A stretch of 40,350 bases of DNA from Planctomycetales bacterium. GTDB lineage: Bacteria > Planctomycetota > Phycisphaerae > Sedimentisphaerales > Anaerohalosphaeraceae. The position numbers and the translations under genes were made by a program. The DNA lies in assembly GCA_022615575.1 (NCBI GenBank), contig JAKEGM010000043.1, positions 1 through 40,350 on the forward strand. The letters run 5' to 3'. Under the pieces are notes generated by a model that was given only the letters and a program-made list of their open reading frames with translations, was not told the origin of the DNA and ran no database searches. This document shows positions 1-18,320 of this stretch, one piece after another (the stretch's first letter is position 1; each line of letters begins with the position of its first letter).

Positions 1-654
1 AAATAACTTGCCAGTCATCGTGCCCGCCGATAAACTAAATCGAATGACCATGAACGCTATATGAAATTAACAAAGAGCAAATTGAGTGCCGAACAGGATT
101 GCGCCTGCCCCCCCCCGCGTTGGTCAATTCGGGAAAAATTCAACAACAAAAAAAACGAAATTCCGCATTATTACCATCGCCAAGCGGGCTGATTATCAAA
201 AGGAGGAAAATGTTCAACATCAAATTGTCAACACGTTGTCAGCCGGTCAACAACACGCTGTCACATACAAGAATGATAAGAATGTAAAGAATGAGAAGAA
301 GGGAACCCACTCTTCTTTTTCGTCTCTTTCCTTTGAACAGCAGGACATCCGCCGACCGCGGCGGCCAACACCGACGCCCTGACGGCGTTTATGGAAGGAC
401 AAACGGATTGTAAATTGGATATTGTAAATTGTAACTTGCATTTCACATCCTCACACAATATCCAATCCCCAATCTACAATTTACAATTTGAAGAAATGAG
501 ACGTCAGCGGCAAGGTGGGCGAAGATGCGGGGGGCATCGCCGATAAAGAGAGATATTCTGGTTAATATCCTCACAATAGGGCTGTGATTTTTGTAATTTA
601 CGGTTTTCTTTTGATGGGCGTCCGGTTTTTTCTTGAAAAGCCGCCGGGCTTGGG

Positions 655-11974: not shown

Positions 11975-13207
11975 TTATTTTCCTACAATAAAACAGACGT
12001 TGGTGGTGGCGGAGCCGCCGATGTTGAGCGTGGCGACGCGGCGGGCGTTTTTGACCTGGTATTCGCCGGCGGTGCCGGTCACCTGCTTGTAGGCATCCAG
12101 CAGCTGCCGCACGCCGGTAGCACCGACGGGATGGCCGCAGCCGATCAGCCCGCCGGATGGATTGATGGGCAGCTTGCCGCCTAACTCAATCACGCCCTCC
12201 TCAATCGCCCGCCAGCTTTGGCCGGGGGCGGTCAGACCGAAGTGGTCGATGGCCATATACTCCGATGTCGTAAAGCAGTCGTGCGTTTCGATGGCGTCCA
12301 GGTCCCAGCAATCCTTAAGACCTGCGCGGCTGTACGCATCGGTGATGGCCTTGCGGGTCCAGGGCAGGACAAACGGCTGATTTTCGGATTCGGCCACTTT
12401 AGCGGAAAATTCCATCGGGGCAGTCGTCTGCCCCCAGCCCTGAATATACGGAATGGATTCCAGCGTGATACCGCAGCGTCTGGCGTATTCGGCGGCAAAC
12501 GGTGCCGAGGCCATATACATACAGACCGCCCCGTCGGTAATCTGCGAGCAGTCGGTTACTTTAATCCGGCCGGAAACGGTGGAATTATATTGGCCTTTTG
12601 AACACGCATGGTCATAGCTCATAAACCAGTCGCGGGTCTGGGCGTTGGGATTCAGTTTGGCGTTGGCGTAGTTAATCGCCGCAATTTGCGCCAGATAAGT
12701 GTCATCCAGGCCAAAGCGTTCCTCATACACGTCGCCCAATTTGCCGAACAGTTTGGGGAAGGGAAACTCCACGCCCGCCGATTCCCGGCTGTACCAGGCG
12801 GCGGTGCCCAGATAATCGCCCCCTTTGGCCGGCGAGGCGGTTTTCATCAGTTCGACGCCAATCAGGGCAATGCAGTCATACATGCCCGCTCGGATATGGG
12901 CCATGGCCGACATGACCGCCAGGGCGCTGGAGGCGCAGGCGCCTTCGAACCGGCTGGTAGGCAGGCCCCGAAACGCCGGGTCAAAATCCACAAAGAACGC
13001 CCCCAAGTGCCCCTGCATGCAGTACAGCTCAGCGGCAAAGTTGCCGATAAAGGCGGCCTTGATGTCGGCCGGCTCGATCCGGGTCGTCCTCAGCGACCCT
13101 TCATACGCCTCGCGCATCATCGCACAGATGTGCTTGTTCTCACGCGCCCAGTTGCGGGCAAAATCGGTCTGATACCCGCCTAAAAGATAGACCTTTTGTT
13201 CACTCAT
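11975..13207 (-). CDS. Thiolase family protein (acetyl-CoA acyltransferase / SCP-x thiolase-like)
   Basis: Active-site RFEGACASSALAVMSA, ETHDCFTTSEYMA, NPSGGLIGCGHPVGATGVRQL. Confidence 0.9.
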   Translation of the reverse strand: MSEQKVYLLGGYQTDFARNWARENKHICAMMREAYEGSLRTTRIEPADIKAAFIGNFAAELYCMQGHLGAFFVDFDPAFRGLPTSRFEGACASSALAVMSAMAHIRAGMYDCIALIGVELMKTASPAKGGDYLGTAAWYSRESAGVEFPFPKLFGKLGDVYEERFGLDDTYLAQIAAINYANAKLNPNAQTRDWFMSYDHACSKGQYNSTVSGRIKVTDCSQITDGAVCMYMASAPFAAEYARRCGITLESIPYIQGWGQTTAPMEFSAKVAESENQPFVLPWTRKAITDAYSRAGLKDCWDLDAIETHDCFTTSEYMAIDHFGLTAPGQSWRAIEEGVIELGGKLPINPSGGLIGCGHPVGATGVRQLLDAYKQVTGTAGEYQVKNARRVATLNIGGSATTNVCFIVGK

Positions 13208-13220
13208 TGCGATAATCCTT

Positions 13221-13255
13221 AGCTTCCAGCGGCCAGCCGCCAGCTTCCAGCAGGA
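13221..13255. repeat. Heptamer tract AGCTTCC-AGCGGCC-AGCCGCC-AGCTTCC-AGCAGGA
   Basis: Five consecutive 7-bp units between the thiolase start and the four-helix-bundle gene. Confidence 0.8.
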
Positions 13256-13284: not shown

Positions 13285-13650
13285 TCATTGTCGATTGCTT
13301 TTGCGTACTGTTTTTACAAATGCGGTAAGCATTTTTCGAATTTCAATAACTTCTTTGGAAAGGTTTTGATAGACTTCCTTTTCGATATAGCCCAGTTCCA
13401 TAGATAACAAAAGCAAGTATTCAATCTCATTTAACGAACCCAATGAGATATCCATGAATCGTGTTAATTCCGTCTCGGTTGTCCGTCCGCATCCCTCAGC
13501 AATATTTGTTGGCACGGACACTGCCGCCCGTCTGATCTGCGAGGTCAGGCCATAGTTTTCTTTGGCAGGAAATTTATCCGTAATCTTATACAACAACAGC
13601 GCCAGTTTATGAGAACGCTGCCATGCCTGAATGTTTCGGTAATCCTTCAT
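13285..13650 (-). CDS. Four-helix-bundle protein (S23 / 23S rRNA intervening-sequence protein family), copy 1
   Basis: MKDYRNIQAWQRSHKLALLLYKITDKFPAKENYGLTSQIRRAAVSVPTNIAEG...; start set at internal Met28 of the ORF. Confidence 0.92.
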   Translation of the reverse strand: MKDYRNIQAWQRSHKLALLLYKITDKFPAKENYGLTSQIRRAAVSVPTNIAEGCGRTTETELTRFMDISLGSLNEIEYLLLLSMELGYIEKEVYQNLSKEVIEIRKMLTAFVKTVRKSNRQ

Positions 13651-13663
13651 TTTTTCTGGTCCT

Positions 13664-13691
13664 GCTGGTTGCTGGCCGCTGGTCGCTTTTT
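13664..13691. repeat. Heptamer tract GCTGGTT-GCTGGCC-GCTGGTC-GCTTTTT
   Basis: Four 7-bp units between the start of the four-helix-bundle gene and the stop of the next gene; opposite orientation to the tract at 13221. Confidence 0.8.
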
Positions 13692-13693
13692 CC

Positions 13694-14977
13694 TCATTTT
13701 GCCGGAAAATACTTACCTGCATTAAAAACATACTGCTCTGAAGTACTGTCCGTTCGCAGCGAGTCCGGCACCGGCAGGTTTTGCGACTGAATCAGTTCAA
13801 TCGCCCGGTCTTTGCCGCCGAGCATATAGACCATCAGGCTGGGACTGGCCCAGTTAAAGCCCGTGCTCATCACCCGGTCGATGCCTTCGATGCCATACCG
13901 CTCATCCGTGACCTGGCCGATCAGCATATACGCATAGGCGATATAGGTCGCCAGCAGCTCATGGACAATATTCGCCTCAGTGCCTTTGGCGGTCAGAATC
14001 GTCTGGAACGCATCGCGGTATCTGCCCAAATGAATCTGGTCTTTGGCCTTTTCGACAAACTGGACGTGCGGGCGGAAGGCGGTAATGTAGCCGCCGCTGG
14101 CCGGGTCGATATACATAAACTCCCCGCTTTCGAGTTTTTTGTAAAAGCCGCCCTTGTCGCGGGTCTTGTTGCCCAGGTGACCGGCGGCGATCATTTTTTC
14201 GACATAGCCGGGCAGCACAAGTTTGTCATGGAACGCATCATCCGTATGGGCCTGCAAGCTGCGGATAATCGCCTTGTGGATATCCAGGCCGACCAGGTCC
14301 AGCGTCGCCAGGGGCGGCATCAGCCGGCCGGTATAGGGGCCGACAAGGTAATCCATCATCTCGATACCGTGTTCAACCGCCAGTTCCGTAATCCGGGCAA
14401 ACAGGACAAACGCAATGCGGTTTCCGGCGAAACCCGCGGTGGGTTTGACGGGGATTACCGCTCGGCGCAGCTTGGCGGCGCAGAAATCCGCCATAACGTC
14501 CACCACCGCCGGATCGGTTTGGGACGTGCCGCAGATCTCGCAGGCGGCCATCTTTCCGGGCGGATTGTAAAAGTGGGTGGAGAGAAAGTTCTTCCGGAAC
14601 GAATGGGAACGCCCTTTGGGCAGCTCGTCCAGAACCAAACTGGAGGTCACGGAGCTGATGACGGAATCGGGGCGGCGCAGGGCGTCCACCTTTTCATAGA
14701 TTGCCTGCTTGACCGCATAATCCTCAGCCACACACTCCAGAATCCAGTCGGCCTGACTGCACGCCTCGGCCAGCAGGGTGTCGTAATCGCCGCAGGTGAT
14801 GTTTTTGGCAATTGTCCCAGAACGGGCCTGCTTCTGGGCACGGGCAAGCCCCTTCTGCGAACCGGCCTGCGTACGGCTTAAAAACCAGACGCCAATATCA
14901 TTCTGGGCCAGCAGCCCGCCCGTCAGTGAACCCACCGTACCGCTGGCGCCGAGAACCGCAACCTTTTGAATTTTCAT
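13694..14977 (-). CDS. 3-hydroxyacyl-CoA dehydrogenase family protein
   Basis: IQKVAVLGASGTVGSLTGGLLA dinucleotide fold, ADWILECVAEDYAVKQAIYEKVD, LSTHFYNPPGKMAACEIC, GFAGNRIAFVLFARITELAVEHGI. Confidence 0.88.
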   Translation of the reverse strand: MKIQKVAVLGASGTVGSLTGGLLAQNDIGVWFLSRTQAGSQKGLARAQKQARSGTIAKNITCGDYDTLLAEACSQADWILECVAEDYAVKQAIYEKVDALRRPDSVISSVTSSLVLDELPKGRSHSFRKNFLSTHFYNPPGKMAACEICGTSQTDPAVVDVMADFCAAKLRRAVIPVKPTAGFAGNRIAFVLFARITELAVEHGIEMMDYLVGPYTGRLMPPLATLDLVGLDIHKAIIRSLQAHTDDAFHDKLVLPGYVEKMIAAGHLGNKTRDKGGFYKKLESGEFMYIDPASGGYITAFRPHVQFVEKAKDQIHLGRYRDAFQTILTAKGTEANIVHELLATYIAYAYMLIGQVTDERYGIEGIDRVMSTGFNWASPSLMVYMLGGKDRAIELIQSQNLPVPDSLRTDSTSEQYVFNAGKYFPAK

Positions 14978-14983
14978 TTGATT

Positions 14984-15025
14984 AGCCCTTAGCTGTTAGC
15001 CATAAGCTCATACCCGGAAGCTTTT
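14984..15025. repeat. Heptamer tract AGCCCTT-AGCTGTT-AGCCATA-AGCTCAT-ACCCGGA-AGCTTTT
   Basis: Six 7-bp units immediately before the ACATTTT tract. Confidence 0.75.
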
Positions 15026-15026
15026 T

Positions 15027-15124
15027 ACATTTTACATTTTACATTTTACATTTTACATTTTACATTTTACATTTTACATTTAACATTTAACATTTAACAT
15101 TTAACATTTAACATTTAACATTCA
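15027..15124. repeat. Fourteen-unit heptamer array: ACATTTT x7, ACATTTA x6, ACATTCA
   Basis: Read directly; perfect 7-bp period over 98 bp. Confidence 0.98.
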
Positions 15125-15139
15125 GTCAATCGTTGTCCG

Positions 15140-15742
15140 CTAATCGCTGACTGATGACAGCTCATAGCGAGTATGTGCCGGGATAAATTCCTGGCGCAAA
15201 AGTCCGATATGGTATAGGTCGATCCTTTGACCGTCAACAATTTTGTCCTGCCGCAGCGTCCCTTCAATCTGAAAGCCCAGCTTCTCGACAACACGAAAGA
15301 TGGCGGGGTTATTCGTGCGGATGTGCGCCCAGATTTTTTCAATCCCAAGCGTTTCAAAGCCCCATTGGAAGAGAATAGAATGGATTTCCGTGCCAAGCCC
15401 CTGCCCCCAGTACGCTTTTTCGCCGATCACACAGTAGCACTGGGCGGTTTTGTTTTTGCGGTCGATATCAATCAGCCCCGTAACACCGATGGGAACGCCG
15501 TCCAGCGACTCGACCAGAAAATCGGCCCGCGCGTCATTGTCCGCAAGTGTCCGAAACCAAGCCATCGTTTTTTCCTGTTCGAAGTGCTCATCCACAACCA
15601 GCGTCTTGCGGACGGCGGCGTCATTATACCATGTAACCTTGAGAACCATATCCGCTTCGGTCAATGGACGCAAACGGACATGGTCACCGACAATCGTATT
15701 TTTTATTTCCAATTTCCAATTTCCAATTTGTTTTTTAGACAC
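15140..15742 (-). CDS. GNAT acetyltransferase (PseH/RimJ-like amino-sugar or amino-acid N-acetyltransferase)
   Basis: VRLRPLTEADMVLKVTWYNDAAVRKTL...YCVIGEKAYWGQGLGTEIHSILFQWGFETLGIEKIWAHIRTNNPAIFRVVEKLGFQIEG; the GTG start in the ORF track is uncertain. Confidence 0.85.
   Translation of the reverse strand: MSKKQIGNWKLEIKNTIVGDHVRLRPLTEADMVLKVTWYNDAAVRKTLVVDEHFEQEKTMAWFRTLADNDARADFLVESLDGVPIGVTGLIDIDRKNKTAQCYCVIGEKAYWGQGLGTEIHSILFQWGFETLGIEKIWAHIRTNNPAIFRVVEKLGFQIEGTLRQDKIVDGQRIDLYHIGLLRQEFIPAHTRYELSSVSD
15706..15729. repeat. Heptamer tract TTTCCAA x3 plus partial unit
   Basis: Three exact 7-bp units inside the N-terminal coding region of the acetyltransferase. Confidence 0.85.
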
Positions 15743-15860
15743 GATTAACTTGATTTACATGGATTTTAAACCGCCAAAATCATCAGCATAAAAAACGTAT
15801 GTTGAATTTATTGTTCGTGTTGTTTCGCGGCATTCGTGGCTTTGTCTCTTAAATCTAAAT

Positions 15861-17114
15861 TCAGAAACTGTAGTTGCTGAAAACGTCATCCAGCGTTTGT
15901 TTTCGGCGAATCAGTTTGAACTGGGCTTGCCCCTCGTCGGCCACAATCGCCGGGGCGGGGTTGATAAAGGGCGGTGTCATCACCAGCGTATAGGCGCCGA
16001 CATTGCCGATCTGGATGTAATCGCCCGGCTCGGGCAGCGGCGCAGCGATATCCTTGAGCAGGATGTCTTTTTCCATGCAGGTGGCCCCGACAACACTGTA
16101 GGTTTGGACAGGACGCCCCTGTTTTTGGGTTATCACTGCATGGGGCATCGTGAGCGAATGAAGCGTCGGCTTTGTATTGAACGCACTGCCGTCCACCGTT
16201 ACAAAGACCTGATCCCGAATCGTTTTGACGCTGACGACTTTGGCGATAAAACTCACGCAATCGGCCGCCATGGCCACGCCCGGTTCAATGACCAGCGTCG
16301 GTTTTTTCTGCTGCACCCAGGCATGGCCGTTTAAGACACTGCCAACGGTCCGGGCATAATCGTCAAACGTCGGCGTATCCTTAAACGGCATTCCGGAACG
16401 CATTTTCCCGAAAAAACCGCCGCCGATATTGATGTATTCTATCGACTCCGGAAAATACGTCCGGGCGATATCGCACAAGGTACGGGCAATAACCTCAAAA
16501 CACCACGTGCTTCGGTCAGTGGTGGACGTATGGCCGTGCAAGCTGATTACTTTTACGTTATCAGCGGGTGATTTTACATTTTGCATTTTACATTTAACAT
16601 TTAACTCGTCGGGGTCGAGGCCGAAACGGCCAACCTTGAGGGAGTCCTGGATGTGTGATTGGCCGGACTGGTCGGACAGGCCGATATTGATGCGAAGACC
16701 GATGCGGATTTCCCTGTCGGGATGTTTTTGAGCATAGGCCTGCACCAGCGTTAATTCAGGTTCACTGTCCACATTAACCATGCTTCCATTGTTTAAGGAC
16801 AGTTCGATGTCATCCGAGGTCTTAACCGGGCCGTTAAAGATAATCTGTTCCGGGGGTTGTCCGACCTTCAGAGCCAGATCATACTCCATCCGGGAAACCG
16901 CCTCCGCCCAGCCGCCCTTGTCTTTGATAATCCGGCACAGATAGGGAATGTAATTGGTTTTGTAGGAATAGGCCAGGACCAGCGGCCGATAGCGGGACGA
17001 AAAGGCCGCCGTCAGGTCGTCATAGTTGGATTCAAACCGCCGGCGGTCAACCCGATAGAACGGCGACCCGCCCGCGATGGATTCAAGTTTTTCAATTTGA
17101 GAATGTGTAAGCAT
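15861..17114 (-). CDS. PLP-dependent alanine-racemase-fold decarboxylase (Orn/DAP/Arg decarboxylase 2 family, LysA-like)
   Basis: SPFYRVDRRRFESNYDDL, VLAYSYKTNYIPYLCRI, VISLHGHTSTTD, INIGGGFFG, VIEPGVAMAADCV, GATCMEKDIL, IGNVGAYTLVMTPPFI. Confidence 0.87.
   Translation of the reverse strand: MLTHSQIEKLESIAGGSPFYRVDRRRFESNYDDLTAAFSSRYRPLVLAYSYKTNYIPYLCRIIKDKGGWAEAVSRMEYDLALKVGQPPEQIIFNGPVKTSDDIELSLNNGSMVNVDSEPELTLVQAYAQKHPDREIRIGLRINIGLSDQSGQSHIQDSLKVGRFGLDPDELNVKCKMQNVKSPADNVKVISLHGHTSTTDRSTWCFEVIARTLCDIARTYFPESIEYINIGGGFFGKMRSGMPFKDTPTFDDYARTVGSVLNGHAWVQQKKPTLVIEPGVAMAADCVSFIAKVVSVKTIRDQVFVTVDGSAFNTKPTLHSLTMPHAVITQKQGRPVQTYSVVGATCMEKDILLKDIAAPLPEPGDYIQIGNVGAYTLVMTPPFINPAPAIVADEGQAQFKLIRRKQTLDDVFSNYSF
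16569..16603. repeat. Heptamer tract TGATTTT-ACATTTT-GCATTTT-ACATTTA-ACATTTA inside a CDS
   Basis: Five 7-bp units; translated on the minus strand as LNVKCKMQNVKS. Confidence 0.9.
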
Positions 17115-17149
17115 CGCTATCAGCCTCCAGCTATCAGCTATCAGCTTTT
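17115..17149. repeat. Heptamer tract CGCTATC-AGCCTCC-AGCTATC-AGCTATC-AGCTTTT
   Basis: Five 7-bp units spanning the start of the decarboxylase and the stop of the second four-helix-bundle gene. Confidence 0.85.
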
Positions 17150-17505
17150 TGTACAGTACCTCTCAGGGTCTTCACAAATGCGGTTAACATCTTTCTGATC
17201 TCAACGACTTTTTCCTCTAAATTTTCAACCTTATCTTTTATGTATTTTAATTCTAAAGACAAGAAAAGAAGATAATCCACCTCATTAACTGATCCCAAGG
17301 CAATATCAAGAAAGCGGGCAATTTCAGTGTCTGTTGTACGACCATAACCTTCAGCAATATTTGTAGGAATAGATACCGCTGCGCGTCGTAGTTGAGATGT
17401 CAAACCATACATTTCTTTTGAAGGGAATTTTTCAGTCAAAGCATATACCTGTTTCACTAATTCATGCGATTTTTGCCATGCTCGAATCTTTTTATAGTCT
17501 TTCAT
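17134..17505 (-). CDS. Four-helix-bundle protein (S23 / 23S rRNA intervening-sequence protein family), copy 2
   Basis: MKDYKKIRAWQKSHELVKQVYALTEKFPSKEMYGLTSQLRRAAVSIPTNIAEGYGRTTDTEIARFLDIALGS... Confidence 0.93.
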   Translation of the reverse strand: MKDYKKIRAWQKSHELVKQVYALTEKFPSKEMYGLTSQLRRAAVSIPTNIAEGYGRTTDTEIARFLDIALGSVNEVDYLLFLSLELKYIKDKVENLEEKVVEIRKMLTAFVKTLRGTVQKADS

Positions 17506-17565: not shown

Positions 17566-18258
17566 TCAGATTTTTGGTTTCTGCTGGGGGCTGGAAGCTG
17601 GCGGCTGGCTGCTTTTCGTGCCGAAAAATTCATCCACCGTGGCGTAGCCCTCCTTGGCGACGCCCCTTCGGGCGATCACATGCCAGAGCGTCAGCCATAA
17701 AATCTTCATATCCAGCCCAAACGACCGGTGATCCACATACCAGACGTCGTAGTCGAATTTCTGCTCCCAGGTCATATCGTTTCGGCCGTTGACCTGCGCC
17801 CAGCCGGTAATGCCGGGCTTGACCTCGTGGCGGCGGTTCTGCCGGGGCGTGTAGCGGCTCAGATACTTGACCATCAGCGGCCGCGGCCCCACCAGCGACA
17901 TATCGCCTTTGAGCACATTGAATAACTCCGGCAGTTCATCCACGCTCGCTGCCCGCAGCCAAAGGCCGAACGGCGTGAGACGTTTTTCATCCGGCAATTG
18001 ATTGCCCTGTTCGTCATGTGTCTTGCTGAGCATGGTGCGGAATTTATACAGGGTAAACAGTTTGCAGTTCAAGCCGGGACGCTGCTGGCGGAACAGCACC
18101 GGCGATCCCAGCTTCATCCGAACCAGTATGGCAACTGTCACCAGCACCGGGCTGAACAGAATCAGCAAGAACAGCGATACAAAAACATCAAACACCCGTT
18201 TTGCAATATCCCGGATGATTGCCAATTTAGAATTAAGAATTAAGAATTTAGAATTCAT
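17566..18258 (-). CDS. Bacterial sugar transferase (WcaJ/WbaP/EpsL-type undecaprenyl-phosphate phosphosugar transferase)
   Basis: RVFDVFVSLFLLILFSPVL, VLFRQQRPGLNCKLFTLYKFRTM, RPLMVKYLSRYTPRQNRRHEVKPGITGWAQVNGRN. Confidence 0.95.
   Translation of the reverse strand: MNSKFLILNSKLAIIRDIAKRVFDVFVSLFLLILFSPVLVTVAILVRMKLGSPVLFRQQRPGLNCKLFTLYKFRTMLSKTHDEQGNQLPDEKRLTPFGLWLRAASVDELPELFNVLKGDMSLVGPRPLMVKYLSRYTPRQNRRHEVKPGITGWAQVNGRNDMTWEQKFDYDVWYVDHRSFGLDMKILWLTLWHVIARRGVAKEGYATVDEFFGTKSSQPPASSPQQKPKI
17583..17617. repeat. Heptamer tract GCTGGGG-GCTGGAA-GCTGGCG-GCTGGCT-GCTTTTC
   Basis: Five 7-bp units inside the 3' end of the sugar transferase CDS. Confidence 0.85.
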
Positions 18259-18319
18259 TTAGCTGATAGCCGAAAGCTGGCCACTTTTTTCCATTTAACA
18301 TTCTACATTTTGCATATTC
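18224..18319. repeat. Composite heptamer region: AATTTAG/AATTAAG x5 (18224-18258), AGCTGAT-type x3 (18261-18281), CATTTAA-type x4 (18292-18319)
   Basis: Three different unit classes, each with a 7-bp period, between the sugar transferase and the propeller gene. Confidence 0.8.
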
Positions 18320-18320
18320 T

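Follow-up and report, generated by a model that had tools for sequence, protein, structure and literature searches.

A tandem heptamer array of 98 bases lies between two genes of a conserved operon in a planctomycete draft genome, which raises the question of where such an array comes from and whether it does anything for the genes beside it. It was found in the window, that is, the whole stretch of 40,350 nucleotides analysed here, on contig JAKEGM010000043.1 of a Planctomycetales bacterium. The source genome (G000) is a 2.39-Mb draft in 160 contigs and is about 90% complete. The initial annotation had described a perfect array of 14 units with one clean switch, from seven copies of ACATTTT to six of ACATTTA. 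The periodicity of 7 bp over 98 bases is real and the switch falls exactly as described, but the array consists of 13 clean units followed by a variant fourteenth (Table 1). TRF gives 14.3 copies with 98% matches and a score of 158, the copy number being that of this single draft genome. The offset-7 score of the array is 90, compared with a maximum of 11 among 20 shuffled windows and with 22 for the second-best 7-bp array in 806 kb of the source genome. Block-wise expansion by slippage or unequal exchange, as was suggested, fits the single clean switch of units and is the best mutational explanation of the array. Tracts with a 7-bp period are numerous in the window, and by its length the array keeps its place as the strongest candidate for copy-number variation there.

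Table 1. Positions in the window of the array, its related tracts, the S23 cassettes and the genes of the operon
Feature	Position	Strand	Description and basis
ACATTTT x7	15027–15075		AAAATGT on the minus strand; exact sequence, TRF
ACATTTA x6	15076–15117		TAAATGT on the minus strand; exact sequence, TRF
Terminal variant unit ACATTCA	15118–15124		Exact sequence
Direct copy of array positions 15057–15091	16571–16605		In decarboxylase ORF; 34/35 identical
Third ACATTTN-type tract	18291–18320		Degenerate; same orientation as array
AGC-type 7-bp repeats, HCDH side	14981–15022		Degenerate (TTAGCTG TTAGCCA TAAGCTC ...); TRF row 14982–15008
AGC-type units, GNAT side	15125–15178		Degenerate; past conserved end of GNAT protein; phase by eye
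ATTTCCA x3.6 tract	15705–15729		Start of GNAT ORF
Thiolase (THIO)	11975–13207	-	Same conserved operon; synteny
3-Hydroxyacyl-CoA dehydrogenase (HCDH)	13694–14977	-	Downstream of array; Pfam PF02737, PF00725
GNAT acetyltransferase	15140–15742	-	Upstream of array, ORF as listed; Pfam PF13302
PLP-dependent decarboxylase (DEC)	15861–17114	-	Same conserved operon; Pfam PF02784, PF00278; synteny
S23a	13285–13650	-	S23/23S_rRNA_IVP four-helix-bundle gene between HCDH and THIO; PF05635 E=4.8e-39; TIGR02436
S23a 3' arm	13221–13251		AGCTTCC/AGCGGCC type; inverted relative to 13664–13687
S23a 5' arm	13664–13687
S23b	17134–17505	-	Second S23/23S_rRNA_IVP gene, upstream of DEC; PF05635 E=3.9e-39
S23b 3' arm	17116–17146		AGCTATC type
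S23b 5' arm	17581–17612		GCTGGCG type; inverted to 17116–17146; weak pairing score 10.5
Inverted heptamer pair, no gene	407–480		ATTGTAA type, 16-bp loop (miniature element); fold z -3.0

The array occupies part of a 162-bp gap between the GNAT and HCDH genes, both of which lie on the minus strand with HCDH starting at 14977, as had been read before. The operon order decarboxylase–GNAT–HCDH–thiolase is conserved across the family, and the named relatives of the HCDH protein are from MAGs of the Phycisphaerae/Sedimentisphaerales. At the GNAT–HCDH junction, the gap measures 30–103 bp in G004, G007, G025 and G035 and 209–293 bp in G011 and G012, in each case without the array. No 7-bp tract of note is found at this junction in G004, G007, G011, G025 or G035; in G012, where the gap is 293 bp, there is a short tract of ATACAAT-type heptamers. 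In G005, HCDH is directly preceded by a gene of the S23 family with AGCTAAN heptamers on either side, at the very junction that holds the array in the window. This junction is therefore vacant in some relatives, while another carries an S23 cassette there. The degenerate AGC-type repeats on the HCDH side of the array resemble the arm end of this G005 cassette, by eye and through a common unit type. Neither an S23 gene nor a remnant of one was detected in the 162-bp gap itself.

Of the ten PF05635 (S23) genes in the source genome, two are found no more than 2.1 kb from the array. S23a begins with an ATG at 13650, its listed ORF extending to 13731, and S23b has structural relatives that have been solved (PDB 2gsc and 2rld). 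Nearly all S23 genes of the genome are framed by short 7-bp tracts in mutual inversion. An identity as 23S rRNA intervening sequences (IVS) was rejected, because no Rfam family, rRNA included, matched anywhere in the window, nor did any match at eight further S23 loci.

The upstream flank of each S23 gene was aligned to its own downstream flank in reverse complement. Family loci have a mean arm score of 16.2, versus 8.4 for mismatched pairs, and 31 of the 38 lie above the 99th percentile of shuffles. None of 20,000 permutations paired the arms as well (p<5e-5), a value that is optimistic, as are all p values here except that of the within-site test below, since S23 loci lack phylogenetic independence. 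The 99th percentile of shuffles is also passed by 21/28 loci from other Planctomycetota and by 11/12 on cyanobacterial, Gemmatimonadota and Azospirillum plasmids, which brings the samples together to 63 of 78. Ordinary ORFs of like size in the source genome set the 99th percentile at 12.0, and 26 of 39 S23 loci score above it. For 50 of 79 S23 loci the leading period is 7 and for 17 it is 8, compared with a period of 7 in 4 of 39 shuffled ones. When seven periods were tried over the 806 kb, inverted tract pairs were found for period 7 only, four of them flanking S23 genes and two being gene-free miniatures. S23 genes in these genomes represent a little-noticed class of small bacterial cassettes that sit between operon genes and are bounded by inverted 7-bp tracts. 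Besides the gene-free inverted pair near the start of the window, a second ATTGTAA-type pair, with a 34-bp loop, was seen in L067 (5493–5586); both resemble miniature S23 cassettes.

Orthologous sites reveal that these cassettes come and go and that their arms change together. The HCDH–thiolase gap is 18–29 bp in seven relatives (G007, G011, G025, G027, G030, G031 and G033). It is 374–480 bp in G004, G028 and G029, where it contains S23 coding sequence as it does in the window; the copy in G004 was identified by eye and that in G028 from its PF05635 position. At six orthologous S23 sites the heptamer unit often differs by genome (GAATTAT versus AGTTTTG; ATTGTAT versus TTGACTA), and arms pair better with their own partner (17.6) than with other genomes' arms at the same site (12.4; within-site permutation p=0.001). 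Arms of inverted repeats can be homogenized by template switching between them (PMC8604942, PMC8794818, PMC7202029), and this may be what keeps the arms of S23 cassettes matched.

Segments with a 7-bp period that score at least 14 number nine in 806 kb of the source genome versus none in 770 kb of two S23-free relatives, a small comparison that favours the source genome, whose sample was picked partly to take in contigs with S23 genes, and whose outcome is mixed, since S23-rich G058 (13 S23 genes) also has none in 400 kb. S23 genes alone thus do not yield long tracts.

The unit of the array is found again inside a coding sequence. The copy in the decarboxylase gene keeps the T-to-A switch of units and is read in frame within a variable loop, leaving the decarboxylase frame intact. 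Its sole mismatch gives CAA for TAA; the perfect array sequence would place a stop at codon 178 of 417. Insertion of a tract in frame was considered as a change of length in the decarboxylase and rejected: the loop exceeds that of one relative by one residue and that of another by three, which suggests that sequence was replaced or copied and not clearly inserted.

Taken together, we slightly favour reading the array as a heptamer tract of the kind found in S23 cassettes, one that stands alone and has expanded by slippage. In favour are the inverted arms of S23 loci with their concerted change, the two S23 genes nearby, the S23 cassette of G005 at the same junction, the near-identical 35-bp piece in the decarboxylase gene, the count of strong 7-bp arrays against S23-free relatives, and the AGC-type units that flank the array and, on the HCDH side, are like the end of the G005 cassette. 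The array has the 7-bp tandem period of a cassette and, like one, occupies an operon junction. We call it a solo tract and not a cassette because the two other features tested are lacking, namely an S23 gene inside and an inverted arm; within 2.5 kb no inverted partner rises above background (score 9, against 11.2 for the 95% point of the null). Tracts of S23 cassettes would grow and shrink by slipped-strand replication, while the concerted change at orthologous sites suggests that template switching or conversion would keep inverted arms matched. At the GNAT–HCDH junction, the source genome may have lost an S23 cassette such as G005 has, or a tract alone may have been copied in. One stretch at the junction would then have expanded by slippage to the present seven and six units, and the 34/35 identity suggests that 35 bp were copied between the array and the decarboxylase gene, in either direction. 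Most likely, the array arose as a by-product of such cassettes and is tolerated between operon genes.

Several points count against the solo tract of S23 kind: the missing inverted partner, the missing S23 remnant, a likeness to G005 that was judged by eye, and the existence elsewhere of solo heptamer arrays with no S23 link (PMC4679880, PMC2700814). The array might be an ordinary minisatellite, unrelated to S23, in which slippage expanded a chance heptamer at an intergenic site that tolerates it. Slippage alone suffices for a single clean switch of units with no partner, and heptameric repeats are known in many bacteria (PMC4692102, PMC4679880). This origin is less likely. Among non-triplet periods in the 806 kb, 7 is the only one with strong direct arrays, apart from its harmonic 14, which reaches a score of 14 mainly through the array itself, and a single period-20 segment. 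Moreover, four of the nine strong 7-bp arrays fall within 3.3 kb around the array, between or beside the two S23 cassettes, and the ACATTTN unit recurs at three nearby places.

Those recurrences also bear on whether the array, or its copy number, is an artefact of assembling a metagenome-assembled genome. A perfect array of 98 bp is near the limit of short reads, and the draft is in 160 contigs. The decarboxylase copy and the third tract nevertheless carry the same unit type outside the array, and the array is bordered by ordinary operon genes whose synteny is intact, making an artefact very improbable. Along the lines of the effect on downstream expression raised in the initial annotation, the array could also control HCDH, by phase variation or by tuning of copy number, at the level of transcription or translation. 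Its position 45 nt upstream of the HCDH start would suit such a role, start-stop units of the AUG-UAA type might conceivably load ribosomes or stall them, and translational control by TAACTGA repeats has been proposed (MacGregor 2015, PMC4679880). ATGs are indeed present in all three frames of the minus strand, as had been noted, though none starts a usable frame. The eight in the AAAATGT block each read ATG-TAA, the six in the TTAAATG block meet a stop after 6–8 codons, and two more in the flank of the array stop after 9 and 4 codons, so that all are dead ends. The array forms no RNA structure (fold z +0.53) and contains no sense-strand promoter. A reading of it as promoter or terminator was dropped, because the promoter-like matches inside it are periodic and only antisense to the operon. 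With the array also absent from this junction in relatives that keep the operon, control of HCDH is unlikely and no regulatory role is evident.

A second protein family shows a comparable arrangement with a different period. GxxExxY genes (TIGR04256) occur in 28 of 40 family genomes, with no match in the source genome, and one such gene lies in the HCDH–thiolase gap of G005 (L115). Their flanks in family relatives (L232–L255) are likewise matched and inverted, scoring 18.6 versus 9.9 with none of 5,000 permutations as good, and have a period of 9 in 16 of 24 loci and of 10 in 6. The length of the unit thus goes with the protein family, 7 bp for S23 and 9 or 10 bp for GxxExxY. Tentatively, S23 proteins and, separately, GxxExxY proteins might be parts of cassettes, selfish or tolerated by the host, in which a fixed period (7 or 9 bp) and no fixed sequence defines the ends. 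The protein, or a host process that it recruits, would recognize or generate the period; the arms would be rewritten together; and stray tracts, the 14-unit array among them, would be shed into junctions and even into coding sequence. The decarboxylase–GNAT gap of the window (15780–15850; L017) contains CACGAA-type repeats (CCACGAATGCCGCGAAACAACACGAAC) with a period of ~9–10 bp. They resemble those around GxxExxY genes, though the source genome has no GxxExxY match.

Heterocystous cyanobacteria have chromosomal arrays of short tandemly repeated repetitive (STRR) heptamers, which are intergenic and have a 7-bp period. The S23 genes on Nostoc, Calothrix and Anabaena plasmids have 7-bp inverted arms. 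Precedents are also known in the heptamers of the Coxiella IVS and in the TAACTGA arrays. The 23S rRNA IVS of Coxiella burnetii carries an S23p ORF and has complementary termini that form a 28-bp stem, and tandem GACAGAT heptamers just upstream of S23p vary in copy number among strains (PMC4990558). It therefore has in common with the S23 cassettes an ORF of the family, complementary ends and heptamers. However, elements of the Coxiella type sit in helix 45 of 23S rRNA and are excised by RNase III, whereas the cassettes described here lie between protein genes, both of their arms are heptamer tracts, the unit varies by site and there is no Rfam match. TAACTGA arrays of Beggiatoaceae, Cyanobacteria and Bacteroidetes are, like the array here, intergenic direct heptamers, often just upstream of start codons (PMC4679880). 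They have one fixed unit and no S23 link was noted for them (PMC4679880), whereas here there are many units and S23 genes lie between inverted tracts. Both these arrays and the heptanucleotide elements of Geobacter (PMC2700814) were interpreted in those studies as regulatory sites (PMC4679880).

By profile, Avd, the accessory protein of diversity-generating retroelements, is a distant relative of S23 (NF033474, best E=1.3e-7), and a structure comparison cited in PMC10053308 finds the same likeness. The S23 proteins nonetheless score far below the Avd cut-off, and the source genome, at about 90% completeness, has no PF00078 match, so that a reverse transcriptase as mobilizer, or a diversity-generating retroelement, was rejected. 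In the open-access papers searched, none tied S23 genes outside rRNA to heptamer tracts, inverted or otherwise. Genes of the S23/IVP family are widespread, and heptamer arrays between genes have long been reported with no source assigned to them; a link between the two gives these arrays a testable origin. Arms that change in concert and a unit length specific to the protein family point to a system of DNA ends defined by period and not by sequence, of which we found no description in the open-access papers searched.

S23 genes were also seen in other settings. On the cyanobacterial plasmids L133, L134 and L138 they lie within CRISPR-cas operons, where they separate cas6 from cas4 or cas10 from cmr3. 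At L132 and L135 they are antisense to both neighbours, which indicates that S23 genes have no fixed orientation with respect to the host operon.
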